A DNA stretch of 46,178 nt from Chromatiaceae bacterium (GTDB taxonomy: Bacteria > Pseudomonadota > Gammaproteobacteria > Chromatiales > Chromatiaceae): the NCBI GenBank assembly GCA_024639005.1, contig JAHEJD010000001.1, forward strand, positions 72,450 through 118,627, written 5' to 3'. The notes below the pieces were generated by a model. It was not told the DNA's origin. It searched no databases and saw only the letters and a list, made by a program, of their open reading frames with translations. Shown here piece by piece: positions 12,396 to 46,178 of the stretch; position 1 is the stretch's first letter, and every line of letters starts with the position of its first letter. Position numbers and translations under genes: made by a program.

Positions 12396-12474
12396 GCAAT
12401 AAGTCGCCGACAGTTGCCGCCAGGGTCGACCGTGGTCACTCTTGAATCCACGACCACCAAAATCGGGTGCCCGA

Positions 12475-15400
12475 ATGTCTCCCAGACAGGTCACGGTCGA
12501 CGGCAACGAGGCCGCTGCGCGCATCGCCCACCTGACCAATGAGGTGATCGCGATCTATCCGATCACCCCGGCGTCGCCGATGGGTGAGTGGGCAGATGAC
12601 TGGTCGGCTACCGGGGTGAAGAACCTCTGGGATACGGTCCCTCAGGTAATCGAGATGCAGAGTGAAGGCGGTGCTGCAGGCGCGATCCACGGCGCCCTGC
12701 AGACCGGTGCACTCGCGACCAGCTTCACCGCGTCGCAGGGTCTGCTGCTGATGATCCCCAATATGTATAAAATCGCTGGCGAGCTGACGTCAACGGTGCT
12801 GCATGTAGCGGCCCGCTCGCTGGCCGTGCAGGCATTGTCGATATTCGGCGACCATTCCGATGTGATGGCCTGCCGGGCCACCGGTTATGCGATGTTGTGT
12901 TCGGCCAGCGTGCAGGAGGTGCAGGATTTCGCGCTGATTGCGCAGGCCGCGACGCTCGTTGGCCGGATACCCTTCCTGCACTTCTTTGACGGATTTCGCA
13001 CCTCGCATGAGATCGACAAGATCTATCAAGTCGACCACGATACCGCACGCGCGATGCTCGATGAGGATCTGGTGGTCGCCCATCGCCGGCGTGCACTAAC
13101 CCCCGATAGACCGGTGCTGCGCGGGAGTTCGCAGAACCCGGACGTCTACTTTCAGGGACGTGAGTCGACGAATCGCTACTATGCCGAATTGCCCGATCTT
13201 ATTGCGCAGGTGATGGCCAGATTCGGCAGACTGAGCGGTAGACACTACGGCCTGTTCGAATATGTCGGCGCACCCGACGCCGAGCGCGTCGTCATGTTGA
13301 TGGGCTCCGGGATTGGCGCCGCCGAAGAGACGGTGGATACCTTGGTGACGCGCGGCGAGCAGGTGGGACTGATCAAGGTCCGTCTATTCCGGCCGTTTTC
13401 ACCGCGCCATCTGCTCGCCGCGCTGCCCGAGAGCGTCAAATCCATTGCCGTGCTGGACCGTACCAAGGAACCGGGCGCCGACGGTGAGCCACTGTACAAA
13501 GATGTCGTCACCGCGCTGGCGCAGGCCTTCGCCGCCGGCGAGCGCACGCCGATGCCGCAGATTATCGGCGGTCGCTTCGGTCTGTCGTCCAAAGAGTTCA
13601 CGCCTGGCATGGTCGCCCGCGTTCTCGCCGAGTTGACGCAAGAGCGGCCGAAGAACCCCTTCACTATTGGCATTCACGACGATGTGAACTATCTCAGCCT
13701 GGACTGGGACGCCAAGTTCCGCCCAGACGCCGCGCACGCGGTAACCCGCTGCATCTTCTATGGCCTGGGCTCGGACGGCACCGTGTCGGCGAACAAGAAC
13801 GCCATCAGGATCATCGGTGAAGCTACCGATCAGCAGGTGCAGGGCTATTTCCAATACGACTCGAAGAAGGCCGGCGCGATCACCGTTTCCCACCTGCGAT
13901 ACGGCATGCAGGCTATACGCTCGACCTACCTTATCGGTGATGGCGAGGCCGACTTTGTCGCCTGTCACCAACCCAACTTCCTTGCCCGCCAAGACGTGCT
14001 GGGCAAGGCGACACCCGAGGGCACTTTTCTGCTCAACAGCCCAGTCGCCCCGGATGCGGTCTGGGACAGCCTGCCGCGCCACGTGCAACAGCAGATAGTC
14101 GATAAGCGGCTGACAATGCATGTGATCGACGCCTACGACATTGCCGGGCGCAACAACCTGGGGCGACGCATCAACACCATCATGCAAGTCTGTTTCTTTG
14201 CGATCACTGGCGTGCTCGACATCGGGGAGGCGATCGCCAGGATCAAGGCGATGGTGGAGAAGACCTATGGCCGCAAGGGGCGGCGCCTGCTCGAGCGGAA
14301 CTTCGCCGCCATCGATGCGGCACTCGCTGGCCTGCACGCCGTCGCCGTGCCCGCACAGGTCAGCAGCCAGATCGAGATGCCGCCGGTAGTCGCCGCCAAT
14401 GCACCGGCCTTCGTGCGCGATGTCACGGCAAAGCTGATTGCGGGGCGGGGCGACAGTCTGCCGGTCAGTGCAATCAGCGCCGATGGGACCTGGCCGCTGG
14501 GGACTGCTGCGTACGAAAAACGCCAGCTGGCGCTGGAGATCCCACGCTGGGAGATGGACCTGTGCACCCACTGCGGCAAGTGCCCGCTGGTCTGCCCGCA
14601 TGCGGCAATCCGCGCCAAGGCCTTCGACGCGGAATTGGCCGCAGGCGCACCAGCGGGCTTTCTGCATACTCAGATCAAGGGCGGCAAGGATTTCCCGCCG
14701 GGCACGCATATCAGCTATCAGGTCGCGCCGGATGACTGCACGGGCTGCGGTCTATGCGTCGAGATCTGCCCTATCCGTGACAGACAGAACCCGCAGCGCA
14801 AGGCACTGAACATGGTGCCTATCGCGGCACACCGCGAGGTCGAACAGGCCAACTGGGACTTCTTTCTGGGCCTGCCCGAGTTCGACCGAACCACGCTCAA
14901 GGAGACCACACTCAAGGGCGCAATGATCATGCAGCCGCTGTTCGAGTTCTCGGGCGCCTGCGTCGGCTGCGGGGAGACGCCCTACATCAAGCTCGCTACC
15001 CAGTTGTTCGGCGACCGCATGCTGATCGCAAACGCGACCGGCTGCTCGTCGATCTACGGTGGCAATCTGCCGACTACACCCTACACCACGAATCCGGATG
15101 GCCGCGGTCCGGCCTGGAATAACTCGCTGTTCGAGGACAACGCCGAGTTCGGCATGGGCATGCGCGTGGCGGTCGACACGCAGGCCGAGCATGCGCGTGA
15201 GCTGCTGCGCAAACTGGCCGGTGAAGTCGACGAGGCTCTGGTTGAGGCAACCCTTAGCGCCGAACAACAGAGCGAGGCCGAGATCGTCGAACAGCGTGAC
15301 CGCGTCGAGTCACTCAAGGCCAAACTGGCCACGAGCTCGCACCCGGCGGCGCGCACCCTGGAAGGCATCGCCGATTACCTGGTCAAGAAGAGCGTTTGGC

Positions 15401-16053
15401 TGATCGGTGGCGACGGCTGGGCCTATGATATCGGCTACGGTGGCGTCGATCATGTGCTGGCCTCGGGGCGCGATGTGAACATCCTGGTACTGGATACCGA
15501 GGTGTACTCCAATACCGGTGGCCAGACATCGAAGGCCACCCCGCTCGGCGCCGTGGCCAAGTTTTCGGCCGGCGGCAAGCCGGTTGTGAAGAAAGATCTG
15601 GCGATGATGGCCATGGCATACGGGAATGTGTATGTCGCACAGGTCGCTTATGGCGCCAAGGACGTGCAGGTACTGCGCGCATTCCTCGACGCCGAGAGCT
15701 ATCCCGGTCCATCATTGATCATCGCCTACTCTCCCTGTATAGCACACGGTATCGACCTGTCCGACAATCTGCGCCAGCAGGGCCTGGCGGTAAATGCCGG
15801 ACACTGGGGACTGTTCCGTTACGACCCGCGCAAGACCGCCTCGGGCGACAATCCGCTGCACCTGGACTCCCCGGAACCGAACATTCCGTATCGTGACTTC
15901 GCCCTCAGCGAGACGCGCTTTGCAATGTTGGAGCGGACCCGCCCGCAGGTCGCAGAGCACTTCATGAAAGCGGCACAGCGACAGATCAAGAACAGGTTTC
16001 ACTTCTATGAGCAGCTGGCTCACCTCGCCGTGGGTAACAACAAAGACGAATGA
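12475..16053 (+). CDS. nifJ: Pyruvate:ferredoxin (flavodoxin) oxidoreductase
   Basis: A single-chain, 1192-residue enzyme interconverting pyruvate plus CoA with acetyl-CoA, CO2 and reduced ferredoxin or flavodoxin. Domain order: N-terminal alpha domain with YPITPASPMGEW, the transketolase-C-like domain (IKVRLFRPFSPRHL), the gamma domain, two 4Fe-4S motifs (CTHCGKCPLVCPH and CTGCGLCVEICPI), then the thiamine-pyrophosphate domain with GACVGCGETPYIK and GDGWAYDIGYGG, and DTEVYSNTGGQTSKATP. All cluster cysteines appear intact. ATG 12475 starts the conserved sequence; an upstream in-frame ATG at 12442 adds a Pro/Arg-rich stretch. An FNR-like palindrome upstream would fit oxygen control. It could work in fermentation, nitrogen fixation electron supply or reductive CO2 fixation. 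Confidence 0.97.
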   Translation: MSPRQVTVDGNEAAARIAHLTNEVIAIYPITPASPMGEWADDWSATGVKNLWDTVPQVIEMQSEGGAAGAIHGALQTGALATSFTASQGLLLMIPNMYKIAGELTSTVLHVAARSLAVQALSIFGDHSDVMACRATGYAMLCSASVQEVQDFALIAQAATLVGRIPFLHFFDGFRTSHEIDKIYQVDHDTARAMLDEDLVVAHRRRALTPDRPVLRGSSQNPDVYFQGRESTNRYYAELPDLIAQVMARFGRLSGRHYGLFEYVGAPDAERVVMLMGSGIGAAEETVDTLVTRGEQVGLIKVRLFRPFSPRHLLAALPESVKSIAVLDRTKEPGADGEPLYKDVVTALAQAFAAGERTPMPQIIGGRFGLSSKEFTPGMVARVLAELTQERPKNPFTIGIHDDVNYLSLDWDAKFRPDAAHAVTRCIFYGLGSDGTVSANKNAIRIIGEATDQQVQGYFQYDSKKAGAITVSHLRYGMQAIRSTYLIGDGEADFVACHQPNFLARQDVLGKATPEGTFLLNSPVAPDAVWDSLPRHVQQQIVDKRLTMHVIDAYDIAGRNNLGRRINTIMQVCFFAITGVLDIGEAIARIKAMVEKTYGRKGRRLLERNFAAIDAALAGLHAVAVPAQVSSQIEMPPVVAANAPAFVRDVTAKLIAGRGDSLPVSAISADGTWPLGTAAYEKRQLALEIPRWEMDLCTHCGKCPLVCPHAAIRAKAFDAELAAGAPAGFLHTQIKGGKDFPPGTHISYQVAPDDCTGCGLCVEICPIRDRQNPQRKALNMVPIAAHREVEQANWDFFLGLPEFDRTTLKETTLKGAMIMQPLFEFSGACVGCGETPYIKLATQLFGDRMLIANATGCSSIYGGNLPTTPYTTNPDGRGPAWNNSLFEDNAEFGMGMRVAVDTQAEHARELLRKLAGEVDEALVEATLSAEQQSEAEIVEQRDRVESLKAKLATSSHPAARTLEGIADYLVKKSVWLIGGDGWAYDIGYGGVDHVLASGRDVNILVLDTEVYSNTGGQTSKATPLGAVAKFSAGGKPVVKKDLAMMAMAYGNVYVAQVAYGAKDVQVLRAFLDAESYPGPSLIIAYSPCIAHGIDLSDNLRQQGLAVNAGHWGLFRYDPRKTASGDNPLHLDSPEPNIPYRDFALSETRFAMLERTRPQVAEHFMKAAQRQIKNRFHFYEQLAHLAVGNNKDE

Positions 16054-40454: not shown

Positions 40455-40898
40455 TCAGCCTCGGCTGGCGTGCATCGCTGCCTCGATCATTGCTGCCGGC
40501 CCGTCACCGATCGCCACGTCCAGGGTGGTACGCGCGCGACCCTTGGCGGCAAGATCGTCGACGAACGCCTGTGCCACCTCGTCGGTCAACGAACAGCGAC
40601 AGACGATGTCACCGCGGACCGGGGCGCGGTAGCGGATGGTCGCCTCGGCGACCACCAGGTCCGCATCCAGACCGGCGCGCGCGATGACGTGCGCACACAG
40701 ACCCCAGGCCGTCAGTATCCCCAGCGCATACAGGCTGCCGGCGAACCCGGTGTCATGAATGTTGCGATTGGGCGCCAGCGGCGCGGCGACGCTGATGCGC
40801 GTATCCGCAAGCTCCGTGATCCGATAGCCCATCGCCTGGCTCAGCGGGATGCCATGGAGGATCTTGTCTTCCAGGTCCTTGGAGGCCGCGGCGTTCAA
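40455..40898 (-). CDS. Hotdog-fold thioesterase-like protein (YiiD C-terminal type)
   Basis: A 147-residue single-domain hotdog protein. Features: GIPLSQAMGYRITELADTRISVAAPLAPNRN, then HDTGFAGSLYALGILTAWGL (the helix with family Gly-Ser) and ATIRYRAPVRGDIVCRC. Such proteins are acyl-CoA or acyl-ACP thioesterases or related binding proteins; the substrate here is not known. The start is TTG 40898, overlapping the matB stop as TTGA, so it is translated with the malonate operon. It may release CoA from a dead-end or excess malonyl/acyl-CoA, which is inferred from position only. Confidence 0.75.
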   Translation of the reverse strand: MNAAASKDLEDKILHGIPLSQAMGYRITELADTRISVAAPLAPNRNIHDTGFAGSLYALGILTAWGLCAHVIARAGLDADLVVAEATIRYRAPVRGDIVCRCSLTDEVAQAFVDDLAAKGRARTTLDVAIGDGPAAMIEAAMHASRG

Positions 40899-42412
40899 GT
40901 GAAAATATCTCTGTAGGTGTCGCGCAGGATATTCTTCTGCACCTTGCCCATGGTGTTCCTCGGCAAGGCATCGACGATGAACACCCGCTTCGGCTGTTTG
41001 AAACGTGCCAGGCGGTCTTTGAGGGCCGCAATCACCGACGGCTCACTGAGCTCGGTGCTGCCATCCGGGACCACGACGGCGGTCACGCCCTCGCCGAAGT
41101 CCGGGTGCGGTATGCCGATCACTGCCGACTCCTTGATCCCCGGCAGGTCATCGATCGCTGACTCGATCTCTTTCGGATAGACGTTGAAGCCGCCGGAGAT
41201 GATCAGGTCCTTGGCGCGCCCGACGATAGTCACCCGCTCATCGTCCGCCATTACCGCGATGTCGCCTGTAATGAACCAGCCGTCGGGCCGGAATTCCTCG
41301 GCGGTCTTCTCCGGCATCTGCCAATAGCCCTGGAACACATTCGGGCCGGTGATCTCCAGTACCCCGGCCTCGCCGCGCGGCAACGCCCGGCCGTAGTCGT
41401 CAGCGACGCGCACGCTGATGCCCGGCAGCGCATAGCCGACGGTCCCGGCGAGCCGTTCGCCCGCATAGGGATTGGAGGTGATCATACCGGTCTCGGTCAT
41501 GCCGTAGCGCTCGAGAATCCGGTGTCCGGTTCTGGCCTCGAACTCCCGGTGCGTCTCGGCCAGCAACGGTGCCGACCCCGAAACAAACAGGCGCATGTTG
41601 GCACAGGTCTCGCGGCCGAACTCCTCGTGCTCGAGCAGGCGCGTGTAGAAGGTCGGCACGCCCATCATCACGGTGGCCTCCGGCAGCTTGCGCATGACGG
41701 TCGCGACATCGTAGCGCGGCAGGAAGATCACCCGCGAACCCCCCAGCAAGGCGCAGTGCAGGGCGACGAACAGGCCATGCACATGGAAGATCGGCAGCGC
41801 ATGCAACAACACATCGTCGTTTTGCCACTGCCAGGTATTGAAAAGCACCCGAGCATTGGAGGCGAGGTTGGCATGGCTGAGCATCGCGCCCTTGGAGCGA
41901 CCGGTAGTGCCCGAGGTATACAGGATCGACGCCAGCTCGTCCGCTTCGACCTGAACGACCTCATTGCTCGCCGGCTGCGATTCCAGCGCGTCGATCAACT
42001 CGCCGTCAGCGGCACCGCCGAGGCTCAGCACCGAGGCCACGCCGCGATCCTTCGCAACCGCTTCGAGGTCGACCTTTTTGGCGGGTGTGCAGACGAATAG
42101 CCGCGGGGTCGCGTCGCCGAGGAAATAGCCGACCTCGGCCGGTGTGTAGGCGGTGTTTAGCGGGATGTAGATCGCGCCGGCGCGCAGACAGGCCAGATAG
42201 AGCAGCACGGCCTCGATCGATTTGTCGACCTGGACTACAACCCGATCGCCCTTTTTTACCCCATGCTGTTGCAGCAGGCTGAGCATCTGGCCACTGCGCG
42301 ACGGTATCTCGCTGTACCGCAGCTGGCGGCCATCGATTCCGTCGAGGAAAACGGCGTCGGGATCGTTCGGGATGCGTTGTTCAAAGAGACGGTAGAGATT
42401 TGCATTCTGCAT
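40895..42412 (-). CDS. matB: Malonyl-CoA synthetase
   Basis: Activates malonate with ATP and CoA to malonyl-CoA. The 505-residue AMP-forming ligase has the core motifs YTSGTTGRSKGAMLSH (P-loop), RYGMTETGM, GWFITGDIA and the C-terminal catalytic Lys in PRNTMGKVQKN. Wide stretches match alphaproteobacterial MatB (ATVMMGVPTFYTRLLEHEEF, MRLFVSGSAPLLAETHREFE, GGFNVYPKEIES), which makes the substrate call firmer than for a generic acyl-CoA ligase. ATG 42412 has AAGGA upstream; a GTG at 42430 overlapping the TauE stop (GTGA) is an alternative. It lies in the same tightly coupled operon as malonyl-CoA decarboxylase. Confidence 0.93.
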   Translation of the reverse strand: MQNANLYRLFEQRIPNDPDAVFLDGIDGRQLRYSEIPSRSGQMLSLLQQHGVKKGDRVVVQVDKSIEAVLLYLACLRAGAIYIPLNTAYTPAEVGYFLGDATPRLFVCTPAKKVDLEAVAKDRGVASVLSLGGAADGELIDALESQPASNEVVQVEADELASILYTSGTTGRSKGAMLSHANLASNARVLFNTWQWQNDDVLLHALPIFHVHGLFVALHCALLGGSRVIFLPRYDVATVMRKLPEATVMMGVPTFYTRLLEHEEFGRETCANMRLFVSGSAPLLAETHREFEARTGHRILERYGMTETGMITSNPYAGERLAGTVGYALPGISVRVADDYGRALPRGEAGVLEITGPNVFQGYWQMPEKTAEEFRPDGWFITGDIAVMADDERVTIVGRAKDLIISGGFNVYPKEIESAIDDLPGIKESAVIGIPHPDFGEGVTAVVVPDGSTELSEPSVIAALKDRLARFKQPKRVFIVDALPRNTMGKVQKNILRDTYRDIFT

Positions 42413-42426
42413 GCTTGTCGGGTCCT

Positions 42427-43215
42427 TCACAGGAAATTGAGGCTCATGCGGCTGGCCAGAACGAAAAGGAAGATCGCGAACAGGCGCCGCAGCAACTGGT
42501 CCGGCAGCTTGTGTGCGAGCGTGGCGCCCAGCGGGGCAAACAGCAGGCTGGCGGCGACCACGCCGCCGAACACCGGCAGATTCACATAGCCGAGACTGAT
42601 CGGCGGTAGCCCGGCCTCATTCAGTCCGCCGACGATGTAACCGATGGTTGCGCTGACGGCGATCGGCAGGCCTATCGCCGCGGCCGTGGCGATCGACCGC
42701 TTGATCGGCACGCCACAAAAGCTCAGATAGGGTACGTTGAGAGAGCCACCGCCGATCCCCATCAGTGCCGAGATCATGCCCACGCCGGTCGACACACCGG
42801 TGAGCACGAGGTTGCCGGGCAGGGTTCCGTGAGCCGAAACGCGGCTCAACGCCATCTGTGCCGACACCAGGTACATGAACAAGACGAAGGCCACATAAAG
42901 CGTCTCGCCGGGGATGATATCGGCAAGCCCCGCGCCGATCAGCGAACCGACCAACACGCCGGGCGCCATGATCTTGAATAGGGTCCAGTCCACCGCGGCC
43001 TTGCGGTGGTGTGTATAGATGCTCGAGACAGCGGTCACGATGATGGTCGCCAGCGATGTCCCCAGCGCCATTTTGATCGCCAGACCGTGCGCCAGGCCCT
43101 GGGTCTCGAACAGCAGGGTCACGATGGGCACGATGATGATGCCGCCGCCTATCCCCAACAGGCCTGCCAGGGTCCCGGCGACCGCGCCGGAGACCAGCAA
43201 CATCGGCAGATCCAT
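42427..43215 (-). CDS. TauE/SafE-family membrane permease
   Basis: A 262-residue permease with about eight membrane segments. Both family repeats are visible: GAVAGTLAGLLGIGGGIIIVP near the N terminus and GVGMISALMGIGGGSLNVPY in the middle. TauE/SafE members export or import sulfite, sulfonates or small organic anions. Its ATG shares a base with the stop of malonyl-CoA decarboxylase and its stop overlaps the alternative start of matB, so it is a built-in member of the operon. Transport of malonate, acetate or a related anion is the simplest guess. Confidence 0.92.
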   Translation of the reverse strand: MDLPMLLVSGAVAGTLAGLLGIGGGIIIVPIVTLLFETQGLAHGLAIKMALGTSLATIIVTAVSSIYTHHRKAAVDWTLFKIMAPGVLVGSLIGAGLADIIPGETLYVAFVLFMYLVSAQMALSRVSAHGTLPGNLVLTGVSTGVGMISALMGIGGGSLNVPYLSFCGVPIKRSIATAAAIGLPIAVSATIGYIVGGLNEAGLPPISLGYVNLPVFGGVVAASLLFAPLGATLAHKLPDQLLRRLFAIFLFVLASRMSLNFL

Positions 43216-44597
43216 CAGCGCTCCGCCTTGATGTGCTTGTCATGCTCTCGTCGTAGCGAACGGGACATGGCGATTCGGCCATCGCGTACGAATGCCTCGT
43301 GGTTGGCGACCACCTGTTCTGGGTCGTAGCGATAATTCACCATCACCGAGTGCGACTGGGCCTCGCCATGCGCCGACACGTCTGCGTAGACGTTGATGCG
43401 CTCGAGGATGGCGCCGTTTGCCAGGTGAAAAGCGGCTACGGGGTCAAAGCAGGTTTCTCCCTGTTTCAACTCTGCCAGATACAACAGCGCGATCCGGGCA
43501 AGCGGTTCCGCCAATATCGACGCATCCTCGGCCGAGCGATGTTGCAGCAGATGAACGATCGCCGCACATGGGCTGGCGTGGCCGCTGTGCGCTTGCAGTG
43601 CGTCCTGGTATTCATCGAGCACATTATCGATCTTCTCGACAGGCCAGTCGGCGACCTCGCCGACGCACAGCCTCTGTAGCCCGCGCGCGAAGCGCGGCAA
43701 GGGCGACAGCGTGGCGAAATGACGCAGGTTGGGCAACTCGGCGCCGAGTTCGCTGAGCACCTGCTTGAGCAGAAAGTTTCCGAAGCTGATGCCGCGCAGC
43801 CCCCGCAGCGCATTGTTGATCGAATAGAACATCGCGGTGTCGGCGAAGTAAGGGTCGGCGATCGCTGCCTCGGGGTCGATCAGTGGCGCGATCTCTGCCG
43901 CCATGCCCTGGGTGAGCGCGACTTCGACGAAGATCAGCGGCTCTTCCGGGAGCGCCGGATGAAAGAAACCAAAACAGCGCCGGTCTTCGCTGAGGCGCCG
44001 GCGCAGGTCGTCCCAGCCGGTAATCGGGTGCACCGCCTCGTAGCGCATCAGCTTCTCGAGGACCACCGCCGGGCTGCGCCAGTCGATGGCCTGCAGGCGA
44101 AGAAAGCCACGGTTGAACCATGAGGCCAGCAGGTGTTTCAGGTCCGCATCCACTGAACCCAGCAGCGGCAGGTCCGGCAGACGATCGAGCAGCTGCTCAC
44201 GCATCTTCACCAAGGCCGACGTGCCGTGCGGCGCCATATTGAGACGCCGAAAGAGATCCTGGCGTGGCGGTTCTACCACCTTCAGCAGTTCGACCAGCGT
44301 GGCCGGCTGGTCGTTGCGGAAGGCATTGGCGGCGGCTCGGATCGTTTCAGGGTCGGGGCCGAATTCCTCGGCCAGGGTGAGAAAGAACGCCGTCTTGTCA
44401 CTTTCGTCGAGACCCTCGAAGCGCTGCAGGATCTCGCGCGCCAGCGCGATATTGGAGGCCTCGCCTCGGCTGGCGATCAGCCGCCTGCACAGCCCGGCCA
44501 ACGAGTCCTGCGCCTCATCGTCACGCAGGCGCAGTAGTTCACGACCGCGATCCGCGACCGTATCCATGATGCGCTCTAGCCAGGTTACCCCAGGCAT
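43215..44597 (-). CDS. matA: Malonyl-CoA decarboxylase
   Basis: Converts malonyl-CoA to acetyl-CoA and CO2. The 460-residue protein has the N-terminal helical domain and the C-terminal acetyltransferase-like catalytic domain. Family motifs: AVHPITGWDDLRRRL, DRRCFGFFHPALPEEPLIFV, YSINNALRGLRGISFGNFLL and LRHFATLSPLPRFARGL, with the catalytic Ser/His region intact. ATG 44597 has GGAG seven bases upstream. It is preceded by the TRAP genes (41 bp gap) and followed, with a one-base overlap, by the TauE gene. With MatB it makes a two-step path from malonate to acetyl-CoA. Confidence 0.94.
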   Translation of the reverse strand: MPGVTWLERIMDTVADRGRELLRLRDDEAQDSLAGLCRRLIASRGEASNIALAREILQRFEGLDESDKTAFFLTLAEEFGPDPETIRAAANAFRNDQPATLVELLKVVEPPRQDLFRRLNMAPHGTSALVKMREQLLDRLPDLPLLGSVDADLKHLLASWFNRGFLRLQAIDWRSPAVVLEKLMRYEAVHPITGWDDLRRRLSEDRRCFGFFHPALPEEPLIFVEVALTQGMAAEIAPLIDPEAAIADPYFADTAMFYSINNALRGLRGISFGNFLLKQVLSELGAELPNLRHFATLSPLPRFARGLQRLCVGEVADWPVEKIDNVLDEYQDALQAHSGHASPCAAIVHLLQHRSAEDASILAEPLARIALLYLAELKQGETCFDPVAAFHLANGAILERINVYADVSAHGEAQSHSVMVNYRYDPEQVVANHEAFVRDGRIAMSRSLRREHDKHIKAER

Positions 44598-44638
44598 TGC
44601 GGCGCTCCGGACGACAGCTTATGGCGCATCGACCTGAG

Positions 44639-45958
44639 TCATTGCGCCGCACCCATCAGGTAATCCGGAAGCCATGTCGCCAAGCCAGGAAACACCGACA
44701 GGATCACGATCGCCAGGACCATGCAGACGACGAACGGCATGGAACCGCGCAGGATAGTCTTCAACGGGATGTCTGGCGCGATGCCATTGATCACATAGAG
44801 GTTGAGGCCGACCGGCGGTGTAATGAGGCCAATCTCCATGTTGATGGTCAGGACGACCGCGAACCAATAAGGATCGAAACCCGCGGAGATAATGATCGGA
44901 AACAGAATCGGCGCCGCCATCAGGATGACCGCGACGGGCGGAAGGAAAAATCCGGCGATCAGCAGGAACACGTTGATCGCGCCCATGAGCACCCATCGGT
45001 TCACGTCCAGCGTGGCAATCCACTCTGCGATCGCCTGGGTAACGAAAAGATTCGACAGCATGAACGAGAACACGCCGGCGGCACCGATGATGAACAGTAT
45101 CATCACGCTCTCGCGGGTCGAATCACGCAGCACTGCCCACAGTGCGTCGAATCGGAACAATCGATAGATCAATACCGCTGCCAATACGCACATCAGGGCG
45201 CCCACGGCCGCGGTCTCCGACGGTGTCGCGATGCCGCCATAGAGGGCATAGAGAACACCGAGGATGATCAACAAAAAGGGCACGACGCGCGGCAGGACCT
45301 CGAGCTTCTCGGCCCAGCTGTAATGGGTCGCGCCCAGTGCCGAATGGGCGCCTCCCTGGCGCCAGGTGCTATAGATGGACCAGACCATGAACAGCCCCAC
45401 CAACAGCAGGCCCGGGATCACGCCGGCAAGGAACAACCGGCCTATGGACGTCTCGGTCGCAATCCCATAGACGATCATCGTGACCGACGGCGGTATCAGG
45501 ATGCCCAGGGTGCCGCCGGCGGCAATCGATCCTGCCGCGACCCCATCGGGATAACCACGCTTGCGCATCTCCGGGATGCCCATCTTGCCGATTGCCGCAC
45601 AGGTCGCCGGGGACGAACCCGACATCGCCGAGAACAGCGCGCAGGCGCCGAGGTTCGAGACGACCAGCCCCCCGGGGATGCGGGTCATCCAACGCTCCAG
45701 CGCCTCGTAGAGGTCGGCGCCGGCGCGCGTGGAGGAAATGGCCGCACCCATAATGATGAACATGGGTATGGACAACAGTGCGAAGTTGTCCAACTTACCG
45801 AAGAAGATCTCCGGCAGAAGCTCGAAAGAGGCGGCTCCGTCGAAGACCAGCAGGAATCCAGCGGAGACGATCAGCAGGCCAATCGCCACCGATACTCCCG
45901 AAAACAGTACCAGGACCGTGATCAGCGCGACCAGCCCGCCGAGGGCAAGTGGGTCCAT
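44639..45958 (-). CDS. TRAP transporter large permease (DctM type)
   Basis: The 12-helix membrane subunit of a tripartite ATP-independent periplasmic transporter, 439 residues. Diagnostic blocks are FALLSIPMFIIMGAAISST, ALFSAMSGSSPATCAAIGKMGIPEM, AAGGTLGILIPPSVTMIVYGI and NMEIGLITPPVGLNLYVINGI. The transporter uses ion gradients with a separate binding protein. GAGGAGG precedes the ATG, and the start shares its A with the stop of the small subunit. From its operon with matA and matB, malonate is the likely substrate, as for the TRAP-type malonate system (MatPQM) of Sinorhizobium. Confidence 0.94.
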   Translation of the reverse strand: MDPLALGGLVALITVLVLFSGVSVAIGLLIVSAGFLLVFDGAASFELLPEIFFGKLDNFALLSIPMFIIMGAAISSTRAGADLYEALERWMTRIPGGLVVSNLGACALFSAMSGSSPATCAAIGKMGIPEMRKRGYPDGVAAGSIAAGGTLGILIPPSVTMIVYGIATETSIGRLFLAGVIPGLLLVGLFMVWSIYSTWRQGGAHSALGATHYSWAEKLEVLPRVVPFLLIILGVLYALYGGIATPSETAAVGALMCVLAAVLIYRLFRFDALWAVLRDSTRESVMILFIIGAAGVFSFMLSNLFVTQAIAEWIATLDVNRWVLMGAINVFLLIAGFFLPPVAVILMAAPILFPIIISAGFDPYWFAVVLTINMEIGLITPPVGLNLYVINGIAPDIPLKTILRGSMPFVVCMVLAIVILSVFPGLATWLPDYLMGAAQ

Positions 45959-46178
45959 CAGTAGTCCTCCTCGAAACCGCCGTGGCCGAGAACCTCGGCA
46001 TCACAGCGCCACGACGCGATCAAGTCAGCGATCATCTGCAGCACGAACAGCCCTAACCCCAGCGGCAACGCCAGATAGGGTATCCATAGACTTACGCCCC
46101 AGACGCTCTCTGACCGCCAGTTGCGCTCCCAGGCGATGTGAAACATCTCATAGCCGTAAAAGGCCATGATCGAGATCA
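45958..46178 (-). CDS. TRAP transporter small permease (DctQ type), partial
   Basis: The gene runs off the window end; about 73 C-terminal residues are visible, ending WRCDAEVLGHGGFEEDY. The segment SIMAFYGYEMFHIAW followed by SVWGVSLWIPYLALPLGLGLFVLQMIADL is typical of the last two helices of DctQ subunits. Its stop overlaps the DctM start by one base. The binding-protein gene is expected upstream, outside the window. Confidence 0.85.
   Translation of the reverse strand, partial: ISIMAFYGYEMFHIAWERNWRSESVWGVSLWIPYLALPLGLGLFVLQMIADLIASWRCDAEVLGHGGFEEDY

Follow-up and report, generated by a model that had tools for sequence, protein, structure and literature searches.

The stretch analysed here, called the window throughout, comprises 46,178 nucleotides from a Chromatiaceae bacterium of the Gammaproteobacteria and closes with a minus-strand group of genes (40455-46178) that is a gammaproteobacterial form of the matA/matB-type malonate operon. 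The confirmed order is dctM, the gene for malonyl-CoA decarboxylase (MCD), tauE, matB and the gene for a hotdog protein (Table 1), and each product exceeds its curated Pfam cut-off in profile searches. The window forms the end of contig C11 of an assembly of 3.2 Mb in 155 contigs, and the operon continues on contig C149 (region L076): the two have an identical end of 121 bp in common, the dctQ frame crosses the join and encodes 186 amino acids, and beyond dctQ lie dctP and then an FCD-type GntR regulator gene. Window and L076 together hold the adjacent TRAP carrier genes and the FCD-type GntR regulator expected of a mat-type operon. In the comparisons that follow, genomes, regions and contigs are cited by handle (G, L and C numbers), and the DctQ proteins of relatives were matched to the window dctQ by tblastn.

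Table 1. Genes of the malonate operon at the end of the window and the basis of each assignment.
Feature	Position	Strand	Basis or remark
dctQ 3' part, TRAP small permease	45958..46178	-	5' part on contig C149 (L076:122-461)
dctM, TRAP large permease	44639..45958	-	PF06808, TIGR00786
MCD, matA-type malonyl-CoA decarboxylase	43215..44597	-	PF05292, PF17408
TauE/SafE (TSUP) permease, 262 amino acids	42427..43215	-	PF01925, 177 bits; trees
matB, malonyl-CoA synthetase	40895..42412	-	PRK07514; ATG start preferred, GTG at 42430 possible
hotdog, YiiD_C family PF09500	40455..40898	-	family and loop residues; TTG start overlapping matB stop

The gene set proposed in a sequence-only reading of this DNA, a TRAP transporter, MCD, a TauE/SafE permease between matA and matB and a hotdog protein after matB, was confirmed. 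Its further statement that nearly every junction is a stop-start overlap holds in part: dctQ-dctM and MCD-tauE overlap by 1 nt and matB-hotdog by 4 nt (TTGA), whereas dctM and MCD are separated by a gap of 41 nt. At the tauE-matB junction a GTG start of matB (42430) would give a 4-nt overlap and an ATG start (42412) a 14-nt gap; the gap is probably correct, since the MatB of L262 begins at the same place as the ATG start (M..NLY.LF). A chance arrangement is excluded by conservation, as G187, G189 and G192 of the own genus show MCD-TauE-MatB-hotdog in this order at protein identities of 66-78%.

The claimed malonate-type operon is likewise supported by its content of MCD, MatB and TRAP genes. 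MatB scores 805.5 bits on the NCBIfam malonyl-CoA synthase model PRK07514 (cut-off 558) and is thus recognised as a malonyl-CoA synthetase, and MCD reaches 301.4 bits against a cut-off of 23.2 on the malonyl-CoA decarboxylase profile PF05292. MCD matches the solved bacterial MCDs 4ksa (1.3e-110) and 4ksf over two stretches each, and the aligned parts include the LSP and FHL.NGA blocks, which carry the catalytic serine and histidine. TRAP permeases that immediately precede MCD in loci of Mesorhizobium and Pseudaminobacter (L045, L046, L048) share 62-63% identity with DctM, and gene position together with this kinship suggests malonate as the TRAP substrate; a TRAP for malonate, matPQM, has been described in Sinorhizobium meliloti (PMC5237526). 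The operon is also a mosaic: DctM is 90-93% and DctP 84-90% identical to the G192/G193 counterparts (window 44639-46178, L076:3-2314), DctM is moreover 82-83% identical to G560 and to a Rhodobacteraceae metagenome-assembled genome (L050), and GntR and MCD are 76% and 75% identical to those of G189, yet the TRAP proteins of G189 itself are just 45-62% alike. It looks as though the TRAP cassette was swapped inside the operon.

The hotdog protein matches PF09500, the Mad family, at 3.6e-36 and 124.7 bits (cut-off 27), and aligns without gaps to the Shewanella oneidensis MadB (1T82), a member of the same Pfam family. Residues N43, N45, H47, T49, F51, S54 and D79 are all retained (MadB numbering, counted from the 1T82 alignment and the residue list of PMC8666670), and with them the N-x-N-x-H-x-T-x-F catalytic loop, in which Asn45, residue Asn46 in the numbering of the window protein, stands with Asn43, His47, Thr49 and Phe51. 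Excerpts of PMC8666670 report that Escherichia coli YiiD and S. oneidensis MadB are malonyl-acyl carrier protein (malonyl-ACP) decarboxylases, that MadB N45A is more than 100-fold and N43A, H47A and T49A are 10-fold less active, that S54A and D79A have nearly normal activity, and that Mad proteins act poorly on malonyl-CoA, with a Km above 5 mM; the natural substrate of the hotdog protein should therefore be malonyl-ACP. Family and catalytic loop could be compared directly and the activity is predicted by analogy with the studied MadB, so the protein is most likely a Mad-family malonyl-ACP decarboxylase and not a thioesterase, although the Pfam and NCBIfam names for such proteins read 'putative thioesterase'. 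Given the family and the intact loop, the CoA-ester thioesterase or release valve of the sequence-only reading is not supported. MadB of S. oneidensis is a standalone protein, whereas the window hotdog is coupled to matB through the overlap of their genes, and the words 'operon' and 'malonate' are absent from PMC8666670. The window hotdog is the sole PF09500 copy found in its own genome. In a tree of 23 PF09500 proteins, which has several long branches and was built after over-long frames had been shortened at their N-terminal ends, ten operon-type hotdogs, three from the operon remnants described below and the copy of G193 form one clade (support 99/96), and nine other standalone copies fall outside it; the tree leaves out the hotdogs of G266, G575, G577, G472 and G567.

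The PF05292 search found MCD in 10 of the 210 genomes of the order and in 35 of the 369 of the class, the own genome being counted in both. With 46 regions from 43 other genomes and the own locus, 47 gammaproteobacterial MCD loci were scanned with the window proteins; several regions reach contig ends, and the counts of neighbours are lower bounds. TauE adjoins MCD in 13 of the 47 (after it in 12, before it in G362), a MatB of at least 51% identity lies in the region in 22, and the hotdog does so in eight. Within the own genus MCD occurs in six of nine genomes and TauE follows it in five, the contig of the sixth (G186) stopping at MCD, and the hotdog comes directly after matB in six genomes: the window, G187, G189, G192 and, as seen on pieces of contig, G186 and G188. 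Distant genomes combine MCD-TauE with a divergent matB (G043, G264, G335, G518) or with an in-line matB (G224, G506). The MCD query also gave 71 named loci, mostly alphaproteobacterial by title and some cut by contig ends; in these TauE stands beside MCD in one (L006, from a gammaproteobacterium) and the hotdog in none; L005 and L006 seem to be the same records as G186 and G335 and are not independent. A lone MatB of 60-62% identity is found in G190 of the own genus (L310:9277-10788), and no MCD, TauE, hotdog or related TRAP was found near it in the 19.9 kb read.

A further form of the locus lies in a fatty-acid synthesis cluster. The class-wide TauE search gave two matches of 74-75% identity, from G266 and G394, neither of which is among the 35 genomes with MCD. 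The order in G266 is fabH-fabD-fabG-acpP-fabF-pabB-dctP-dctQ-dctM-tauE-matB-hotdog-pabC-mltG-tmk (fab, pab, mltG, tmk and hotdog names from NCBIfam), with 4-nt overlaps at matB-hotdog and hotdog-pabC. G575 repeats this entire order and G577 shows matB-hotdog-pabC-mltG-tmk up to the contig end; the cassette between pabB and pabC is thus seen in one genus, complete in two species and by its 3' side in a third. MCD was not found genome-wide in G266 and is absent from the stretch read in G575 and G577. Misassembly of the cassette is unlikely because the three copies have clearly diverged (G266 and G575 are 87% identical in FabH and 61% in the hotdog, G266 and G577 73% in the hotdog). The G394 contig (4.8 kb) is nearly the same as that of G266 and may be contamination. 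The family of these species has the hotdog in four of eight genomes, namely G266, G575, G577 and, together with MCD, G506; three of the four genomes without it are 60-81% complete and the fourth, G402, is 97% complete. G466 (L264) carries GntR-dctPQM-tauE with a divergent matB and no MCD. No other observation points as strongly as the fab-cluster form to malonate activation and Mad working together with fatty-acid synthesis.

Moreover, the operon survives as a remnant in another genus of the own family, where G134, G138 and G142 keep tauE (78-79%) and the hotdog (50-51%) around a matB remnant of ~76 codons. MCD was not found in the three, nor was MatB at 1e-90, and no TRAP permease above 34% identity occurs among the matches at 1e-50. 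Between these species, TauE shows a nonsynonymous divergence (dN) of 0.013-0.020 and a synonymous divergence (dS) of 0.20-0.24 (dN/dS ~0.07-0.09) and the hotdog a dN of 0.046-0.077 and a dS of 0.20-0.42, whereas the matB remnant has a dN of 0.133 and a dS of 0.162 (single pair, G138-G142) and is also frameshifted in G134. With tauE under strong purifying selection, the hotdog gene likewise under purifying selection and the matB remnant drifting, tauE and the hotdog are evidently kept for their own sake. The open frame of the remnant in G138 and G142 ends in an overlap with the hotdog start (L213:3979-4225, L214, L215), and it is possibly kept just for translational coupling. G191 retains a TauE (69%) beside a divergent GntR gene, and no MCD, MatB or hotdog was found in it. 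An Mdc-type malonate decarboxylase was considered as a partner of TauE and rejected: eight of the 210 genomes of the order gave partial matches over ~65-90 of 546 positions, six of them above the cut-off, and none of the TauE genomes discussed here is among them. Overall, both extra genes recur in relatives; their absence from the operons of close relatives, which the sequence-only reading had named as the outcome that would speak against it, was not observed. That both serve malonate breakdown alone finds no support, given their persistence in three species lacking MCD, MatB and a matching TRAP.

TauE matches PF01925 above cut-off with residues 6-257 on profile positions 1-237 of 237 and is thus a full-length TSUP protein; no solved transporter related to it by sequence was found at E values up to 1. 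A search of the order at 1e-20 gave a match in 159 of 210 genomes. The first tree set 12 operon and four remnant or lone TauEs, over-long frames having been trimmed at the N-terminus, against the 20 best remaining matches of the order, and the former occupy one side of a 99/96 branch, with the 20 other TSUP proteins opposite. In a wider tree of 55, with 20 class-wide matches added and 16 matches from the order, a 99/97 branch separates 15 malonate-locus, four remnant or lone and four class TauEs from 32 others; both trees leave out the cut TauE of G449 and the near-copy of G394. Among 12 class-wide TauE contexts, three have malonate genes (G266, G394, G466) and nine do not, showing at most MatB-like or GntR-like matches of 26-34%. 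From trees and neighbourhoods, the link between this TauE group and malonate is strong without being exclusive. Both G187 and G362 have MCD, MatB and TauE but no TRAP permease more than 38% identical among matches at 1e-50 or better, which favours a role of TauE in malonate entry, and the retention of TauE in the remnant genomes favours a role without catabolism, for example inhibitor efflux. TauE is likeliest a putative malonate permease whose direction would depend on the setting, a claim graded weaker than that for the Mad enzyme and the least certain step of the explanation preferred below.

Several known systems resemble the locus in part. According to excerpts of PMC5237526, matPQMAB of Sinorhizobium meliloti likewise joins TRAP, malonyl-CoA decarboxylase and malonyl-CoA synthetase genes, and matRABC of Rhizobium leguminosarum likewise comprises a GntR regulator, MCD, MatB and a carrier. 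However, in the alphaproteobacterial loci among the 71, some of them cut by contig ends, neither a TauE nor a hotdog match was found beside MCD, whereas the window has both, and the R. leguminosarum carrier is MatC, whereas the window has TRAP, TauE and an extra Mad-type gene. Excerpts of PMC12303837 describe a biotin-less engineered E. coli that grows with malonate as the sole source of malonyl-CoA via MatC and MatB, likewise a transporter and MatB feeding malonyl-CoA to fatty-acid synthesis. The reading of the fab-cluster form is plausible because this MatB route has been engineered; unlike it, the cassette of the relatives is natural, includes a Mad-type gene, lies in a fab cluster and occurs with acetyl-CoA carboxylase kept. 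The window TauE shares PF01925 with the TSUP (TauE/SafE) permeases at large, and its own group is mostly tied to malonate genes. Among the papers listed from an open-licence collection that misses most subscription journals, none linked TauE/'sulfite exporter' or Mad to malonate operons and none treated MatB together with MadB.

Taken together, it is on balance probable that the locus is an operon for malonate import and activation in which a Mad enzyme converts malonyl-ACP to acetyl-ACP and so links malonate to fatty-acid synthesis, with TauE as a second malonate permease. The TRAP system would import malonate, as its place and kinship suggest, and MatB would make malonyl-CoA, which MCD would convert to acetyl-CoA, as expected from close homology. 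The transfer of malonyl groups to ACP by FabD is an established pathway, and surplus malonyl groups would take it; the hotdog protein would then convert malonyl-ACP to acetyl-ACP, whereby malonate would supply both extender and primer and a build-up of malonyl-ACP would be prevented. TauE would be independent of TRAP and provide the entry route in operons without one, and where MatB and MCD are missing it may give relief by letting out malonate, an inhibitor of succinate dehydrogenase. A bolder, tentative proposal is that the conserved core is a 'malonate-to-lipid' module and not one for malonate breakdown, with MCD an optional add-on: TRAP and TauE would import malonate, MatB would provide malonyl-CoA as extender and Mad acetyl-ACP as primer, and fatty acids would be made from scavenged malonate, which would lower the demand for acetyl-CoA carboxylase and FabH. 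Its clearest form would be the MCD-less fab-cluster cassette of G266, G575 and the partly seen G577.

A number of observations weigh against these interpretations. Loss of acetyl-CoA carboxylase along with the fab-cluster cassette was rejected for G266, as the alpha subunit is retained in all eight genomes tested (G575 and G577 not among them), and G266 also retains FabH; there is thus no forced bypass, and with the carboxylase kept a malonate route to lipid would be a supplement. TauE was not seen beside MCD in 34 of the 47 loci, some of which reach contig ends, and the operon of G533 has the hotdog without TauE. Four class TauEs on the malonate side of the wider tree (G251, G391, G341, G542) have no malonate gene within ~1.5 kb, and G251 and G391 have none within ~6-9 kb, where a weak GntR match is found. 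As TauE is retained in the remnant species and in G191, import for catabolism cannot be its sole role, and its substrate may differ from malonate. The hotdog stands apart from the malonate genes in G472 and G567, G193 keeps it elsewhere than its operon, and given the poor activity of Mad proteins on malonyl-CoA it is unlikely to be a second enzyme of malonate breakdown.

Two other roles could be envisaged for the hotdog protein. As a thioesterase it would free CoA from malonyl-CoA or acetyl-CoA under overload, with TauE exporting or importing malonate; the database names, and the association of the hotdog fold with thioesterases, hydratases and dehydratases in excerpts of PMC8666670, would fit, but the PF09500 members tested in the same excerpts decarboxylate, every residue mutated there is retained in the window protein, and hydrolysis of malonyl-CoA would presumably reverse the MatB reaction at the cost of ATP, making this role highly improbable. 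Alternatively, it could be the sole housekeeping Mad enzyme of the cell, co-transcribed behind matB and unconnected with malonate. PF09500 was indeed found in 20 of 30 genomes, with a single copy in each, and the hotdog survives without an intact matB in G134, G138 and G142 and apart from the operon in G193, G472 and G567; however, the operon-type hotdogs form one clade, the gene follows matB in several families with or without MCD (G224, G506, G533, G266, G575, G577), and the fab-cluster hotdogs arrive together with TRAP, TauE and matB, so that a housekeeping role alone is considered unlikely.

As for TauE, characterised TSUP proteins are mostly exporters, and its retention by purifying selection in genomes that lack MatB, MCD and a matching TRAP would suit a malonate exporter only, protecting succinate dehydrogenase while TRAP does the import. 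Since malonate needs another entry in G187 and G362, which have MCD, MatB and TauE but no matching TRAP, this restriction to export appears somewhat doubtful. That TauE handles a different anion, a sulfur compound or another short carboxylate, and owes its place in the operon only to regulation or history, seems rather unlikely: the name of PF01925 refers to sulfite export, TauE persists in G191 and, alongside the hotdog, in three species that have no malonate enzymes, and the four class TauEs nest on the malonate side with no malonate gene nearby, but the malonate-locus TauEs of several families cluster, including those of the MCD-less dctPQM-tauE-matB cassettes.

Other genes were observed nearby and in relatives. 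Upstream of the operon lie a plus-strand gene for a CoA-acylating methylmalonate-semialdehyde dehydrogenase (L076:3097-4656; TIGR01722, 714.8 bits), an enzyme whose chemistry is near that of malonate semialdehyde metabolism, a second TRAP set (L076:5634-8992) and an amidase-like gene. The window also encodes a full-length pyruvate:ferredoxin (flavodoxin) oxidoreductase (12442-16053; TIGR02176, 1702.6 bits). Upstream of the standalone hotdog of G193, near-identical proline-rich frames are spaced 729 bases apart (L218:4391-7885); the DNA repeat is plain, and the frames may be spurious.

In the usual view, malonate is either a carbon source that cells decarboxylate or a respiratory poison. If the explanation preferred here is true, it would reveal that malonate from the environment reaches membrane lipid by a natural path, the 'thioesterase' label of the hotdog protein in malonate operons would be corrected, and the TauE/SafE family would gain a testable carboxylate substrate.

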